Shown here piece after piece: positions 3,685-41,909 of a stretch of DNA of 41,909 nucleotides. Source of the DNA: a virus; IMG/VR virus record IMGVR_UViG_3300035703_000171, positions 1-41,909 of that record; one strand, written 5' to 3'. Under the pieces are notes generated by a model. The model did no database searches. It saw only the letters and a list, made by a program, of their open reading frames with translations, and was not told the DNA's origin. How positions within the stretch are numbered: position 1 is the first letter of the stretch; each line of letters starts with the position of its first letter. The translations under genes and the position numbers were made by a program.

Positions 3685-4197
3685 ATGGTAATACAACGAA
3701 ATAAAGCAGGCCATGAACTCTATCGTACATGGACCATGATGAAGCAGCGGTGCAACAATCCAAACGCGACAAGCGCACCTTGGTACCACGACATGGGCAT
3801 CAAAGTATGCGAGCGCTGGCAACATGACTTTTGGGCATTCGTAGATGACATGGGTCCAAAGCCCCACCCTAGCTACACGCTGGACCGCATCAATAATGAG
3901 GGCGACTACGAACCCGCGAACTGCCGATGGGCAACACGTAGCGAACAGGTCCGCAACGCTCGCAGAGGACTAGGGTTGAAGCACAATAAGCCACGTGGCA
4001 TCCGCACACTGCGCAAGCCTCTGCCGTTCAGAGGGAGGCAGGTAGCAATCTCGGACCTAGCTAGGGAATTAGGATTGGACGAGGCCGAGATAAGGTCCCG
4101 CGTCAGTATTGGATGGACCCTAGAGGAAGCTGTAACGATCCCTAAGGGCATGTGGCGCAGCGCATGGTATCGTGAGAACCCTCGCCCCAACGCATAA
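3685..4197 (+). CDS. HNH homing-type endonuclease
   Basis: A 170-residue protein. Residues about 10-95 match the phage HNH type (RTWTMMKQRCNNPN, WHDFWAFVDDMGPKP, YTLDRINNEGDYEPANCRWAT). About residues 113-150 (FRGRQVAISDLARELGLDEAEIRSRVSIGWTLEEAV) form a helix-turn-helix-like DNA-binding tail. The same tail occurs twice in the gene at 7708. It stands alone between a terminator and a leaderless-type promoter on one side and a bidirectional terminator on the other, as expected of a mobile selfish gene. Target site unknown. Confidence 0.85.
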   Translation: MVIQRNKAGHELYRTWTMMKQRCNNPNATSAPWYHDMGIKVCERWQHDFWAFVDDMGPKPHPSYTLDRINNEGDYEPANCRWATRSEQVRNARRGLGLKHNKPRGIRTLRKPLPFRGRQVAISDLARELGLDEAEIRSRVSIGWTLEEAVTIPKGMWRSAWYRENPRPNA

Positions 4198-7707: not shown

Positions 7708-8310
7708 ATGAAGATACAAATACCTAAACCAAAGCAGAAACTGAATCGCACACCAGAGCGAGCAGCATGGTTGAACATGCGTAGTAAGGTCAGAACTCCA
7801 GGTGCAACTGGTTATCGGCCCAACACGCCAATCGAACCAGAATGGGAGAAAGACTTCCATTCATTCCTCCGCGATGTTGGTTACAAACCCACACCTAAAC
7901 ATGTCCTGAAGATGATCGACCCTGAACTGGGTTTCGTCAGAGGTAATGTTGAGTGGTATGGCGGTAAGTTCACAAGGTACGTTCCAGCGATGACTCTCAC
8001 CTACATGGGTGAAACTCTCACCTTCAAAGAATGGTCAGAGAGAACCGGTATTCGTGTATCGGCCCTCCAGAGAAGGTTTAAGTGTAAGTGGCCTATTGAC
8101 CAGTTACTTGGTTATGCACCTAGACAGCGACCAAAGAAGTATCGGAGGTATCTAACCCATAATGGAGAGACATTGCCATTGCTTGAATGGAGTAAGAGAA
8201 CCGGCATTGATAGGCTGGTACTCTATTGCAGACATTGCCATGGTTGGACTGATGCACAGGCACTTGGGTTTGAACCACCGCCAAGCCGTAAGCGTACAGG
8301 TAACAAATGA
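7708..8310 (+). CDS. HNH-related DNA-binding protein with degenerate nuclease and two tail repeats
   Basis: A 200-residue protein. The N-terminal part keeps the frame of the phage HNH family (WLNMRSKVRTPG, WEKDFHSFLRDVGYKP), but the active stretch LDRINNEGDYEPANCRWAT of the gene at 3685 is here LKMIDPELGFVRGNVEWYG, so key Asp, Arg, Asn and Cys positions are changed. Two repeats follow: YMGETLTFKEWSERTGI... at about 93-132 and HNGETLPLLEWSKRTGI... at about 149-188. Both are related to the DNA-binding tail of the HNH protein at 3685. The likely reading is a nuclease-dead, DNA-binding derivative. Mean base composition is AT-richer than the virion genes. Confidence 0.7.
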   Translation: MKIQIPKPKQKLNRTPERAAWLNMRSKVRTPGATGYRPNTPIEPEWEKDFHSFLRDVGYKPTPKHVLKMIDPELGFVRGNVEWYGGKFTRYVPAMTLTYMGETLTFKEWSERTGIRVSALQRRFKCKWPIDQLLGYAPRQRPKKYRRYLTHNGETLPLLEWSKRTGIDRLVLYCRHCHGWTDAQALGFEPPPSRKRTGNK

Positions 8311-14488: not shown

Positions 14489-15049
14489 ATGCCCTATCTG
14501 TACGCTATTGGATGGACAGCTCTAGACAAGTGGTATCTCGGTTGCCGCTATGCCCCACACAGTGACCCAAGTGACTTGTGGGTATCCTATTTCACCAGCA
14601 GCAAAGTGGTTGCTGAGTACCGCAAGTTGTATGGCGACCCAGACCACAAGGAAATCCTAGCAACTGGCACGCGGGAAGAAATACTAGGTGCTGAGCAAAG
14701 CTACCTTGCCGAATGGAACCTCCACAAAGACCCGCGCTGGTTAAATCAGTCCATTGGAGGTGAGCGCTTTTACAGCACCGGCCCGCTAGACCCCGCAATG
14801 GTTGAGCGCAGGGCAAAATCTCTCAGAGGTCAGAAGCGTACTGACGAGCAGCGCGCACGCATGAGCAAAGCGGCTGAAGGCCGTGCGCCATACAATAAGG
14901 GGCGCAACATCACGGAGAAGCACAGACAAGCTCTCATTGGGATAAAGCGCAAGCCGCGTCCCCCACACTCTTCAGAGACTAGAGCCAAATTGAGTGCAGC
15001 GCGCCGCGCTCGCGAAGCAGCCCGACGCGACAATCCCCAGACCGACTAA
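14489..15049 (+). CDS. GIY-YIG homing-type endonuclease with NUMOD3-like repeats
   Basis: A 186-residue protein. The GIY-YIG module opens the chain (YLYAIGWTALDKWYLGCRY, about residues 3-21), with later conserved Arg (REEILGAEQSYL). From about 108 on, GQKRTDEQRARMSKAAEG, GRNITEKHRQALIGIKR and HSSETRAKLSAARRARE form three NUMOD3-type DNA-binding units as in I-TevI relatives. It stands between portal and scaffold genes as a free-standing intruder. Its TAA stop is part of the next promoter motif. Confidence 0.87.
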   Translation: MPYLYAIGWTALDKWYLGCRYAPHSDPSDLWVSYFTSSKVVAEYRKLYGDPDHKEILATGTREEILGAEQSYLAEWNLHKDPRWLNQSIGGERFYSTGPLDPAMVERRAKSLRGQKRTDEQRARMSKAAEGRAPYNKGRNITEKHRQALIGIKRKPRPPHSSETRAKLSAARRAREAARRDNPQTD

Positions 15050-16897: not shown

Positions 16898-16928
16898 CGT
16901 GAGTCAATAACTAGAAAGCCAACAACTA

Positions 16929-16979
16929 TTAAATAGTTGATGGAGAACGCGCCTTGCACACAGGGGAGATAAGTAGCTG
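16929..16979 (+). promoter_or_regulatory. Tandem TTAAATA and ATAAGTA motifs with a 10-codon leaderless mini-ORF
   Basis: TTAAATA (16929-16935) is followed by 4 nt and an ATG (16940) that opens MENAPCTQGR. Its TAA stop is the TAA of the second motif, ATAAGTA (16969-16975), which is followed by 4 nt and the ATG of the next gene at 16980. Confidence 0.6.
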
Positions 16980-17396
16980 ATGGCAATTCCAACTATTCAA
17001 GCGGCAGACGCCTTCCACACACTCAGAGCCAATACGGCTTGGGAATTGTTGGATACGGATGAAAAGACCGCCGCGCTTTGGAGAGCAGATGACTACCTGT
17101 CTGCGTTCTACCAGTTTGTTGATTATTCGAACGAAGATGCCGCGACCATCCTGAGCAACAATGCTCTGCTTGATACCGCAAAGATCATCCTAGCATTGGA
17201 ATTCCGCACTGCTCAAAGCGTGACCGCTAAGAGCAACATAACGAAAGAGCGCAAGCGCGTTGAAGGCGTGATCGACAAAGAATTCCAGTATGGTGAAGCA
17301 CCTTCCGATCCATACCCCCAAGTGACTGCGATGTTGCGCCCAATCCTAAAACGTGGCCGCTCTAGTCCTTTCGCGGTCCTTAACATTGAGAGGTAA
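16980..17396 (+). CDS. Head-tail connector (adaptor) protein, DnaT-like
   Basis: A 138-residue helical protein after the capsid gene. ALWRADDYLSAFYQFVDY and LALEFRTAQSVTAKSNITKERKRVEGVIDKEF (part: ITKERKRVEGVIDKEF) are the pattern of the DnaT-like/gp6-like adaptors that plug the portal ring. Start at 16980 is fixed by ATAAGTA plus 4 nt. The next gene begins 5 bp after its stop. Confidence 0.72.
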   Translation: MAIPTIQAADAFHTLRANTAWELLDTDEKTAALWRADDYLSAFYQFVDYSNEDAATILSNNALLDTAKIILALEFRTAQSVTAKSNITKERKRVEGVIDKEFQYGEAPSDPYPQVTAMLRPILKRGRSSPFAVLNIER

Positions 17397-38709: not shown

Positions 38710-38736
38710 AAAGCCCCGCCGGTATGGGCGGGGCTT
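38710..38736. terminator. Terminator after the minus-strand gene at 38759
   Basis: AAGCCCCGCC-ggtat-GGGCGGGGCTT forms a strong GC-rich stem 23 bp beyond the stop of the minus-strand gene. Confidence 0.75.
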
Positions 38737-38758: not shown

Positions 38759-39280
38759 TTAGAACTTTACGGTCCAAAGCTTCGCAGGGTTGCTGCTATA
38801 ACCGGCTGGCTTCCAGTTGCTGTCGAGGGTAAACCAAACGCCGTTGTGGTATAGGTGAACTACCGGTGCCGAACCCGTGTAGGGTTCAAGGATTGCAGCA
38901 GTGCCGAAGTACATGTCCTTGACTCCGCGCTTTAGGTTATGCGCTCCAGTGCCCGCCATTCCGTTCCACTTGCCGAACGTTACCATGCAGTCTGGATTGT
39001 CGAGTTCGATCACCCGATCAATGACCGCTTCGAGGTGTTTGCGTTCCGCGATTGTAAGCTGCGCGCTCTCCATGTGGTCCGCTAACCACGGAAGGTCCAC
39101 GATGCCGAAATTTAAATTACAGCGCTCGGTGCTGTGGCCAATGTCCCAGAGCAAGCCGTACTGGGTGACCGGCCATTTGCAGTCTGGCCCGTTATGGTAA
39201 AATTCCATGCGCATGGTCGTCTTGGGCTTCGCGGGCTTTGGTGCCTGCGTCTCGTTCGGTACTTCGAATAGTTCGTTCAT
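38759..39280 (-). CDS. Hypothetical protein under structured-leader control
   Basis: A 173-residue protein (MNELFEVPNETQAPKPAKPK...). A Pro/Lys linker follows the first ten residues, then a compact domain with several Trp and His (GPDCKWPVTQYGLLWDIGHS, FGKWNGMAGTGAHNLKRGVKD). No family recognised. ATG at 39280 was chosen over an upstream start because AGGA lies nine bases before it and because the 110-nt region upstream folds into two perfect hairpins rather than coding. It is the only minus-strand gene with the TAAATA promoter motif. Confidence 0.6.
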   Translation of the reverse strand: MNELFEVPNETQAPKPAKPKTTMRMEFYHNGPDCKWPVTQYGLLWDIGHSTERCNLNFGIVDLPWLADHMESAQLTIAERKHLEAVIDRVIELDNPDCMVTFGKWNGMAGTGAHNLKRGVKDMYFGTAAILEPYTGSAPVVHLYHNGVWFTLDSNWKPAGYSSNPAKLWTVKF

Positions 39281-39391
39281 GTTGTCGTGTCCTAATAGAT
39301 TGAACCCCGGAGGGACACGACTCTCTCCGGGGCTCAGGTTAGCATTGCTGCTAGAAACTGGGGTGAAGCACAATGTCGTGTCTTGCTTCAC
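39278..39391 (-). promoter_or_regulatory. Structured leader with two complementary loops and a complementary ribosome site
   Basis: In RNA sense: hairpin 1 has the 8-bp stem GUGAAGCA / UGCUUCAC (39391..39363) with GACACGAC in its loop. Hairpin 2 has the 8-bp stem CCCCGGAG / CUCCGGGG (39332..39305) with GUCGUGUCC in its loop. The ribosome site region reads AGGACACGACAAC then AUG (39293..39278). The hairpin 2 loop is perfectly complementary to both the hairpin 1 loop (8 nt) and the ribosome site (9 nt). Confidence 0.75.
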
Positions 39392-39394
39392 ATC

Positions 39395-39402
39395 TATTTA
39401 TA
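39395..39402 (-). promoter_or_regulatory. TATAAATA promoter motif (minus strand)
   Basis: TATAAATA, identical to the T4 late consensus, 3 nt before leader hairpin 1. It is divergent from the plus-strand motif at 39473. Confidence 0.68.
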
Positions 39403-39438
39403 CAGAAACTCTCCAGTTTGCGGTTTTTGGGGTTTTAA

Positions 39439-39478
39439 TTTTGACAGCGAGGGGCCATTTACCTTAGAAAGATAAATA
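39439..39478 (+). promoter_or_regulatory. TTGACA element and ATAAATA motif before a small RNA
   Basis: TTGACA at 39441-39446 and ATAAATA at 39472-39478. Spacing between the two is longer than the usual 17 bp, so they may be separate promoters. Confidence 0.55.
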
Positions 39479-39583
39479 GATTTGCGGTGACATCGAAAGC
39501 CATCGTAAGATGGATCAGTCACTGCTCAACAGTATAGGCCCACCTTACGGTTTTCGATGTCCCGTAAGGTGGGCTTTTCTTTT
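39479..39583 (+). ncRNA. Candidate small structured RNA with its own terminator
   Basis: Hairpin GTGAC ... CCATC-gtaa-GATGG ... GTCAC (39487-39522) is followed by a perfect 13-bp terminator stem GCCCACCTTACGG / CCGTAAGGTGGGC (39538-39574) and TTTTCTTTT. The terminator loop TTTCGATGTC (39552-39561) is perfectly complementary to GACATCGAAA (39489-39498). Promoter, folded body and terminator in about 100 nt are the signs of a small RNA gene. Conventional protein-coding use of this stretch would put the terminator inside an ORF. Confidence 0.6.
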
Positions 39584-39602
39584 GAGCCCTCCACTTACAT
39601 AC

Positions 39603-40001
39603 TTGGTAATTGTTTTAAACCGCGATAGCCCAGGGCAACTGCTTAACGATCACGAAGCCGAAAGGTGCGAGGATCGGCTAACCAACAGGTTAGTTTGTCA
39701 TCCCAGTAGTGAAAGCCGCGATGAGGGAACCAAGCCCGACTGGTCTGCTTACCCAGCGACCCCTGAGAAGGACAGTTGGGTCAACGCTTCAAGGCTGTTG
39801 AATAAACAACCAAGCAGGAACCAGGATAAAGAAATCGCTCTTATGACTCTGGCACTGGTGTTAATTGATAAATCCACCACCCAGATGCTCAGATGCGCTA
39901 CTTTTGAAAGTGCTGCTAGGAAGGTAACAACTTGGCTTAAATCTGAGACACCGTTGTACGAGGGACCTGACCGCAAGCGGCACAATGCAACCACCGGCTA
40001 G
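39603..40001 (+). CDS. Possible hypothetical protein, start uncertain
   Basis: An open frame of about 130 residues with normal-looking composition (…LLNKQPSRNQDKEIALMTLALVLIDKSTTQMLRC… in part DKEIALMTLALVLIDKS). TTG at 39603 is the first start candidate after the terminator; ATG at 39843 would leave only 52 residues. No clear ribosome site at either. It could be a gene or just open non-coding DNA. Confidence 0.3.
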   Translation: MVIVLNRDSPGQLLNDHEAERCEDRLTNRLVCHPSSESRDEGTKPDWSAYPATPEKDSWVNASRLLNKQPSRNQDKEIALMTLALVLIDKSTTQMLRCATFESAARKVTTWLKSETPLYEGPDRKRHNATTG

Positions 40002-40061
40002 TTACAAACTAGTGTCAGTTCAAAAGGTATGGTGAAAGCTCTTCGGCAAAACCTACTAACT

Positions 40062-40131
40062 CCCCTGATTGGAAAGACAAGATGCCGCTGGTTAATTCCA
40101 GTGGTTCTTTTCTTGTCTTTCCAATCAGGGG
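40062..40131. repeat. 21-bp perfect inverted repeat with inner hairpin
   Basis: Arms 40062-40082 and 40111-40131 (CCCCTGATTGGAAAGACAAG + A and its complement) are perfect. The loop contains CCGCTGG-ttaatt-CCAGTGG. No T-run follows the plus-strand arm, and AT-rich sequence lies beyond it. Confidence 0.75.
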
Positions 40132-40238
40132 GTAAAGGTATGACTCTTGCTCTCGGCAATTACCACATGTTCGCATTCGCTCACATGTTCAGATTATAAT
40201 TTTTAATCATTACTCATGTATTTTCTTCGAACCGATTT

Positions 40239-40305
40239 ACACACCGACAAAGCTAACGAACGTCAGTGAGTGTAGCTGTCGGTGTGTAGCACGAACGTTA
40301 GTTCG
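40239..40305 (+). other. 11-bp stem with loop partly complementary to the next hairpin
   Basis: ACACACCGACA (40239-40249) pairs perfectly with TGTCGGTGTGT (40277-40287). The loop CTAACGAACGT is complementary at 9 of 11 positions to ACGAACGTTAG (40291-40301), which belongs to the following hairpin CGAAC-gtta-GTTCG. Confidence 0.5.
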
Positions 40306-40496
40306 GGCTCCTACTGTATAGAGTACCTCCGAGCAATCTACTCGATTAACGACAAAGCGATGTAACTCATCCTTCCGATCAATCCTAAGAGATTCTGACA
40401 TAAAGACGGGCCTAGCTTTCGCAAGACCCGTCCCTGCAACATGAGCAACCTGGATGGTTTGGTATCGCCGTTGCAAGCGTACCGTCTATTTAACTG

Positions 40497-40503
40497 CTAA
40501 GTA
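40497..40503 (+). promoter_or_regulatory. CTAAGTA promoter motif, leaderless GTG start
   Basis: The motif is followed by 4 nt (TTTG) and GTG at 40508. This decides the start of the endonuclease gene. Confidence 0.62.
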
Positions 40504-40507
40504 TTTG

Positions 40508-40900
40508 GTGACTTGGCAGTATGACCCCAACATTGACCCCTTGCAGTTTGAAGGCTTCGTCTACCTCATTCGGAACCTGACCACCGGTAAGTCCTACATC
40601 GGGAAGAAGTCCGTTTGGGCACGCAAGGGCCGTGGGAAGAAGCAAGTGGTCAAGGAATCTACATGGCGAAACTACTGGTCCAGCAGTGCTGACCTGAAAG
40701 CCGATGTGAAGGCACAGGGCAAGGAAGCCTTTTCCAGACAAGTGCTATGTTGGTGCAGGGACAAGCAAAGCCTTACCTATTGCGAGCAGCGTGAGCAGTT
40801 TGCCCATGATGTCCTGGGTGCAAAGCTTCCAGACGGAACGCCTGCTTTCTATAACAAGAACATCGCTGGTCGCTTCTACCGCGCACCAGACGCTGTTTGA
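40508..40900 (+). CDS. GIY-YIG endonuclease (Seg-like)
   Basis: A 130-residue protein. FVYLIRNLTTGKSYIGKK (about residues 17-34) is the GIY-YIG signature. WRNYWSSSADLKADVKAQGKEAF and the Arg/Glu-containing YCEQREQFAHDVLG follow in the order seen in T4 Seg-type endonucleases. GTG at 40508 was chosen because CTAAGTA lies 4 nt upstream; a longer upstream reading would run through the promoter. Compared with the endonuclease at 14489 it lacks the long NUMOD3 tail. Likely a free-standing homing enzyme. Confidence 0.8.
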   Translation: MTWQYDPNIDPLQFEGFVYLIRNLTTGKSYIGKKSVWARKGRGKKQVVKESTWRNYWSSSADLKADVKAQGKEAFSRQVLCWCRDKQSLTYCEQREQFAHDVLGAKLPDGTPAFYNKNIAGRFYRAPDAV

Positions 40901-41513: not shown

Positions 41514-41687
41514 ATGACGAACAAAACTGCACGGAAAAAGAGCGCTCGTAAGCGGAAAAACAACCCCACTCCGGCGACAATAGCCCGAAGGGGCGTTCTC
41601 TTAATTTCACCCTTGGTGCCGCCCCTTCGGGCTATTGTCGCCGGGTGCAAGAACTGCGCTACGCTCCGATTGTACGAAGCTTGCTAG
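41514..41687 (+). CDS. Small basic protein gene interrupted by an inverted repeat
   Basis: A 57-residue ORF. AAGGAGTGATTCT precedes the ATG, and the first 20 residues are very basic (MTNKTARKKSARKRKNN). After that the frame runs through both arms of the 25-bp inverted repeat at 41571, giving PATIARRG and then PLRAIVAG, which look like by-products of the repeat. The original C-terminus may be lost, or the short basic peptide may be all that is needed. Confidence 0.4.
   Translation: MTNKTARKKSARKRKNNPTPATIARRGVLLISPLVPPLRAIVAGCKNCATLRLYEAC
41571..41644. repeat. 25-bp perfect inverted repeat near attR
   Basis: Arms 41571-41595 and 41620-41644 (CCGGCGACAATAGCCCGAAG + GGGCG and its complement) are perfect, with a 24-nt loop. 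It is GC-rich, lies 139 bp from attR, and has no T-run, so it is not a plain terminator. A small non-autonomous insertion is possible. Confidence 0.75.
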
Positions 41688-41745: not shown

Positions 41746-41909
41746 TCAGTGAGACAAAGCCTGTGCAACTGTAGCTTGCTTTATCAGCTGGTTGCAGCCG
41801 AGGCTGCGGGCATCGAGCGGGGAGCCGGGGATCGCCATCACCTCGCGCCCCGCCTCGCCCGCCAGCCGCGCGGTGATGAGGCTGCCCGATTGCGGCGCGG
41901 CCTCGACCA
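41746..41909 (-). pseudogene. dprA: dprA, upstream fragment fused to a phage-encoded tail
   Basis: The minus strand reads [20 protein letters not shown], then [21 protein letters not shown], the Rossmann-fold core of DprA. At attR it runs into phage DNA and ends after [12 protein letters not shown] at the stop 41746-41748. The missing continuation lies at 1..127. The truncated product lacks the C-terminal part, so natural transformation should be impaired in the lysogen. The gene continues beyond the window edge. Confidence 0.9.
41764..41789. other. attR, serine-integrase attachment site with AT core at 41783-41784
   Basis: Phage sequence ends at the AT of 41783-41784 and dprA begins at 41785 (CAGCTGGTTGC on the plus strand). 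GTGCAACTGT (41764-41773) is the arm that mirrors ACAGTAGCAC at 138-147. Confidence 0.85.

Follow-up and report, generated by a model that had tools for sequence, protein, structure and literature searches.

The window, by which we mean the whole stretch of DNA that was analysed, is a 41,909-base virus record. Both of its ends (1-135 and about 41770-41909) consist of high-G+C dprA codons. The right end gave a dprA family match (...00732, E 1e-9), and the translation of the left end includes ...REGAVLVQTPDEVIELLQSF.... A gene for a large serine recombinase is found at 181-1923. The pieces of dprA at both ends indicate a prophage that has inserted into dprA, with the serine recombinase gene alongside; an earlier note on this DNA had rightly guessed that it is a prophage. 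Judging from the DprA sequence, the host looks alphaproteobacterial. Four free-standing homing-endonuclease-like genes (3685-4197, 7708-8310, 14489-15049 and 40454-40900), of HNH-like, NUMOD3 and SegE GIY-YIG types, are present in this one small prophage. Near the right attachment site, a perfect 25-bp inverted repeat (41571-41644, z -8 to -11.5) sits in a short frame starting MTNKTARKKSARKRKNN.

The gene at 38759-39280 (minus strand) belongs to an accessory region that separates the lysis/tail genes from the attachment site, and the late genes are on the other strand. It codes for an orphan protein of 173 amino acids, for which sequence and family searches gave neither relatives nor families; an AlphaFold model of the single sequence had a mean pLDDT of 36. 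A G+C-rich, terminator-like hairpin, AAGCCCCGCC-N6-GGCGGGGCTT, is located 3' of the gene at 38711-38736 (minus strand). On the other side of the gene is a 1.17-kb non-coding block (39281-40453, minus strand), bounded by the divergent SegE-type GIY-YIG endonuclease gene (40454-40900). No long frame in the block carries a coding signal. Codon-usage scores were negative, including that of the plus-strand ORF at 39510-40001, which we rejected as a gene. In places the block is much more strongly structured than elsewhere in the window, with z of -5.9 at 39461-39580 and -8.2 at 40061-40180. Several near-perfect hairpins occur within the block, which is possibly one large non-coding RNA and has no Rfam match. 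A perfect 21-bp inverted repeat at 40062-40131 has a 28-nt loop enclosing a small hairpin and gives z of -8 to -9 on both strands; its exact pattern was not found in the viral contig collection.

The leader of the 173-residue gene lies at the end of this block (39278-39402, minus strand) and is supported as an element by fold z scores and layout statistics. With its three motifs in brackets, the minus strand from 39402 to 39278 reads ...AUAAAUAGAU GUGAAGCA-A[GACACGAC]AUUG-UGCUUCAC CCCAGUUUC UAGCA-GCAA-UGCUA ACC UGAGCCCCGGAG-AGA[GUCGUGUCC]-CUCCGGGGUUCA AUCUAUU A[GGACACGAC]AAC AUG. Hairpin 1 (39363-39391; -9.5 kcal/mol, z -3.25) begins with a GUG at 39391. Its arms, GTGAAGCA (39391-39384) and TGCTTCAC (39370-39363), form a perfect 8-bp stem that closes a 13-nt loop, A-GACACGAC-AUUG. 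The loop 1 motif GACACGAC, read directly from the sequence at 39382-39375, repeats the ribosome site and is a candidate anti-anti-SD, or decoy. A small middle hairpin, UAGCA-GCAA-UGCUA (39340-39353), separates hairpin 1 from hairpin 3 (39301-39336; -26.0 kcal/mol, z -6.1). The core of hairpin 3, CCCCGGAG/CTCCGGGG (39332-39325 / 39312-39305), consists of 8 perfect, G+C-rich pairs and is lengthened to a 12-bp stem by UGAG/UUCA. Its 12-nt loop is AGA-GUCGUGUCC, in which the loop 2 motif GUCGUGUCC (39321-39313) is the candidate anti-SD. The ribosome site reads UUAGGACACGACAAC-AUG, with the SD core AGGA at 39293-39290 in good spacing to the AUG at 39280-39278. The third motif, GGACACGAC (39292-39284), directly 5' of this AUG, spans the GGA of the SD and most of the spacer. 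Reading of the sequence, a repeat search and folding agreed to the base with the positions and lengths of the three 8-9-mers, and of the two perfect 8-bp stems, that the earlier note had described. We also considered the in-frame GTG frame 39391-38759 as an N-terminal extension of the gene and rejected it; its GTG has no suitably spaced SD, and the motif copies fall in different frames.

The repeat search listed all three repeat pairs as perfect, namely the direct one (39283-39291 / 39374-39382) and the two inverted ones. The sequence GTCGTGTC occurs three times in the whole window, every time in the leader. This confinement to the leader fits a motif that pairs locally better than it fits a shared site. 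A motif found three times in 100 bp and not again in the window could also be read as a DNA operator, with three 9-bp repressor sites, one of them inverted, around a promoter. We consider an operator very unlikely. It leaves unexplained why the copies coincide exactly with two hairpin loops and with the SD region, and both the spacings of 61 and 30 bp and the single non-palindromic half-sites would be unusual. A promoter scan did not reveal the transcript start and found no recognisable promoter beside the three motifs.

The fold of the leader (a 151-nt stretch) was 4.7 standard deviations below those of dinucleotide shuffles (z -4.7), and 0 of 200 shuffles were equally stable. In 20,000 dinucleotide shuffles of the leader, a triple made of an 8-mer, its reverse complement and a second copy (X..rcX..X) never arose. 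The whole window, when shuffled, held 0.06 such triples on average, against two in the real sequence; the second, at 16923-16997, combines a plain hairpin with a copy in coding sequence, and we set it aside for its other layout. We also shuffled the loop 1, loop 2 and ribosome-site segments separately, 100,000 times each. Complementarity of at least 8 between loops 1 and 2 appeared in 62 of the 100,000, between loop 2 and the ribosome site in 82, and both together in none. The joint rate of the two pairings is about 5e-7 if they are assumed to be independent. As a natural-DNA control, we scanned both strands of 800 kb of an alphaproteobacterial Pseudorhodobacter replicon (1.6 Mb in all). This replicon contained 18 strand-wise triples within a span of 150, which indicates that natural DNA is less random than shuffles, but none had both inner motifs in loops. 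With hairpins defined strictly (perfect stems of at least 8, loops of 6-16 nt), no pair of hairpins in the replicon shared 6 complementary loop bases and two pairs shared 5. Neither of those two had a third copy by a start codon, whereas the loops of the leader share 8 bases and such a copy is present. The analysis establishes the sequences of the leader, their complementarities, the predicted hairpins and the non-randomness of the arrangement.

A functionless origin, either by chance or as a relic of local template switching, draws some weight from the many windows that were read before this find and from the lack of a supporting homologue. We rate it as highly improbable. The leader shuffles produced nothing comparable, 1.6 Mb of natural strand lacked even 6-nt loop-loop matches between stems of at least 8, and a joint rate of about 5e-7 holds up against thousands of windows. 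The earlier note had called a three-way repeat in loops very unlikely by chance, and these controls bear it out; chance is an unlikely full explanation even across the thousands of windows read.

The loop 2 motif can pair with loop 1 over 8 bp or with the ribosome site over 9 bp, and never with both. This logic, pointed out in the earlier note, is present in the sequence; loop 2 matches 9 of 9 positions of the ribosome site and 8 of 8 of loop 1, non-randomly, as an anti-SD / anti-anti-SD scheme calls for. We propose that the leader is a cis-acting translational control element for the gene at 38759-39280, an anti-SD / anti-anti-SD switch that operates through loop pairings, and we judge the chances of this proposal to be about even. 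The exact loop placement of all three motifs supports it, as does the statistical improbability of the arrangement. In the off state, loop 2 would pair over 9 bp with GGACACGAC to make an H-type pseudoknot on hairpin 3, and the SD would be hidden. In the on state, loop 2 would kiss loop 1, the copy of the ribosome site, over 8 bp and leave the SD free. Because transcription makes loops 1 and 2 first, the kiss is expected before the pseudoknot. The pseudoknot would then capture the ribosome site unless a ribosome, a closing stem (P1, described below) or a bound factor blocked it. The geometry of the loops appears suited to both kissing and an H-type pseudoknot, with purines on their 5' sides (A in loop 1, AGA in loop 2) and pairing segments of 8-9 nt. 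We infer the formation of both pairings, the on/off assignment and the role of P1 from the sequence.

We compared the energies of the two pairings. As free duplexes, loop 2 with loop 1 (8 bp) gives -11.8 kcal/mol and loop 2 with the ribosome site (9 bp) gives -15.1 kcal/mol. Totals for the two states were obtained from constrained ensembles plus these free-duplex energies. With the loop-closure penalties of kiss and pseudoknot left out of both, the kiss-ready and pseudoknot-ready totals differ by 0.1-3 kcal/mol at all six assumed 5' ends (for example, kiss vs pseudoknot, -57.0 vs -56.3, -61.4 vs -64.4, -75.5 vs -75.4, -121.2 vs -119.1 and -161.1 vs -161.9). Against the switch, the folding program places two weak pairs inside loop 2 that would need to open, and an 8-nt linker across the 12-bp stem would be tight unless the lower pairs fray.

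It may be that only one of the pairings matters. The leader would then be a static pseudoknot that lowers translation to a set-point, or a static, compacting kissing complex, with the third copy neutral or tuning. The 3.3 kcal/mol by which the ribosome-site pairing beats the kiss as a free duplex fits such an element, and since each pairing alone arises in shuffles at 6-8e-4, one of them could be incidental. The joint probability of about 5e-7 speaks against this, as does the clean placement in its own loop of a motif that copies the ribosome site at 8 of 8 positions. We regard a static element as rather unlikely, though worth keeping in mind. For the switch that the earlier note had suggested, the mutually exclusive pairing stands and the two states are nearly isoenergetic in this rough model. 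Its preference for a switch over fixed repression, and for a response to a ligand or protein, found no support; the searches gave no homologue and no Rfam match.

The leader also has a predicted 7-bp closing stem, P1, between AAUAGAU (39392-39398) and AUCUAUU (39300-39294). It forms when the 5' end of the RNA is near 39403-39410. In folding, the probability of P1 was about 1 for RNAs starting at 39403, 0.36 at 39420 and 0.03 at 39490. The drop in longer RNAs arises because P0 and other upstream helices compete with P1. That P1 needs an RNA start near 39403-39420 counts against the switch. P0 pairs AAACUGG (39413-39419) with CCAGUUU (39361-39355) and encloses hairpin 1. Further upstream, a 13-nt anti-P1 segment (39472-39484, minus strand) is 92% complementary to the region of the P1 5' arm (39401-39389; -10.7 kcal/mol); when the 100 nt upstream were shuffled 2000 times, 9 shuffles reached this strength. 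Because AUCUAUU doubles as the 3' arm of P1 and the pseudoknot linker, P1 should be incompatible with the pseudoknot, whereas it can coexist with the kiss. In the proposed switch, the kiss together with P1 would leave the SD free, and loss of P1 or of loop 1 would let loop 2 take the SD. Sequestration of the P1 5' arm by anti-P1 and P0 would bias the leader toward the off state.

The upstream part of the block holds a second pairing between a loop and a downstream segment (39489-39574, minus strand). In this case the loop region (39561-39549) of a perfect 13-bp hairpin (39574-39538) pairs with 39501-39489 at -16.5 kcal/mol, and 0 of 2000 shuffles did as well. The leader might be the expression platform of a new structured RNA of about 1.17 kb (39281-40453) that senses through upstream pseudoknots and P1 strand exchange, with the decoy ribosome-site loop competing for the anti-SD loop and so switching the orphan gene. 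We think this larger version unlikely.

A different kind of control could come from translation of a tiny upstream ORF. A possible 8-codon uORF (39292-39318, minus strand) runs from a GUG in loop 2 (39318) to a UAG over the SD (39294-39292). Its translation would open hairpin 3 and couple to the main AUG, with the loop pairings tuning the coupling, much as in plasmid rep leaders with leader peptides. In its favour, hairpin 3 holds a GGAG 6 nt 5' of the GUG, and the SD AGGA shares bases with the stop codon. Yet the SD and start of the uORF are buried in the most stable hairpin (-26 kcal/mol), mini-ORFs easily arise by chance, and no relative was found that would show conservation. We hold this explanation to be quite unlikely.

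The loops might also pair in trans. An antisense or small RNA, made for instance from the opposite strand, could bind one of them, or loops 1 and 2 could join two copies of the mRNA into a dimer. Antisense RNAs are known to make contact through complementary loops, and the opposite strand carries the same two hairpins with complementary loops. On the other side, no YUNR-type loop motif was seen by eye, a simple scan of the plus strand of the leader found no promoter-like site, and trans pairing leaves the third copy at the ribosome site unexplained. We consider trans pairing extremely doubtful. The cis-acting switch is plausible and specific, and it is drawn from one sequence.

We compared the leader with known RNA switches. 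The Rfam 15 covariance models gave no match in the window at gathering scores, and raising E to 10 added two chance-level matches only, neither of them in the leader. The preQ1-type riboswitches are folded pseudoknots that take in the SD region, and the leader resembles them in its predicted SD-region pseudoknot, without an Rfam match. To our knowledge, an extra loop bearing a copy of the SD is not part of the preQ1-type classes.

The cobalamin riboswitches offer a closer likeness. In env8, the L5-L13 loop-loop kissing helix decides access to the RBS (PMC10907184), and the btuB cobalamin riboswitch follows SD / anti-SD / anti-anti-SD logic (PMC11162775). The leader would likewise tie loop-loop kissing to ribosome-site access, but Rfam found no match in it to the conserved aptamer core. 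Furthermore, the kiss itself hides the RBS in env8, whereas in the leader the kiss would free the RBS and the pseudoknot would hide it. Guanidine-II (mini-ykkC) riboswitches place two hairpins 5' of a gene, with kissing proposed to promote translation and both SD and anti-SD in the model (PMC7544219). Their small, conserved tetraloops kiss with guanidinium, while the loops of the leader are 13 and 12 nt long and share 8 complementary bases, and Rfam gave no match. In the IncI-alpha plasmid gene repZ, a pseudoknot adjoining the ribosome site sets translation, and a competing pairing prevents the pseudoknot (PMC8383071). There the pseudoknot activates and an antisense RNA blocks it; in the leader, the pseudoknot would mask the SD, with a loop of the same leader as its competitor.

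From its sequence, the leader would act like known translational switches and is a member of no known class. The earlier note knew of no described riboswitch with this layout. That statement holds against Rfam 15, and a literature search limited to open papers found no described family with the kiss/pseudoknot layout of the leader. The logic itself, however, follows the common anti-SD / anti-anti-SD scheme, and control of the RBS by kissing loops is known in cobalamin riboswitches and proposed for guanidine-II. What sets the leader apart is that a single anti-SD loop would kiss in one state and form an H-type pseudoknot in the other, the competitor being a copy of the ribosome site carried in a loop. 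If real, this would be a compact switch in which ribosome site, captor and decoy are all single-stranded segments, two of them in hairpin loops, and its state could be set by tertiary pairing alone. The three short segments are independently swappable, in what is so far one instance without relatives. Such a switch would let a prophage gate an accessory gene at translation and could serve as a template for designed riboregulators.

We searched for relatives of the leader. Blastn of the leader and of the whole block against phages and plasmids found none. Searches with the 173-residue protein, the terminase, the capsid and a neighbouring 120-residue protein gave no relative of the leader or its gene. 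DNA patterns for the triple motif, the loop 2/ribosome-site pair and two upstream hairpins gave no relative of the leader in the viral contig collection. No homologue that could show covariation came from phages, plasmids or IMG/VR viral contigs. The triple pattern matched 15 stretches in a genome contig collection. We rejected these as relatives; they comprise repeats in Planctomycetales ZRK34 and in Aggregatilineales, along with single matches, and do not have the hairpin layout. Three viral-contig matches to the two-part pattern were likewise rejected, each being a plain nested hairpin and not a loop pseudoknot. In an unrelated viral contig (1073-1127, minus strand), GTCGTGTCC and GGACACGAC form a plain hairpin over the ribosome site of what appears to be a major capsid gene.
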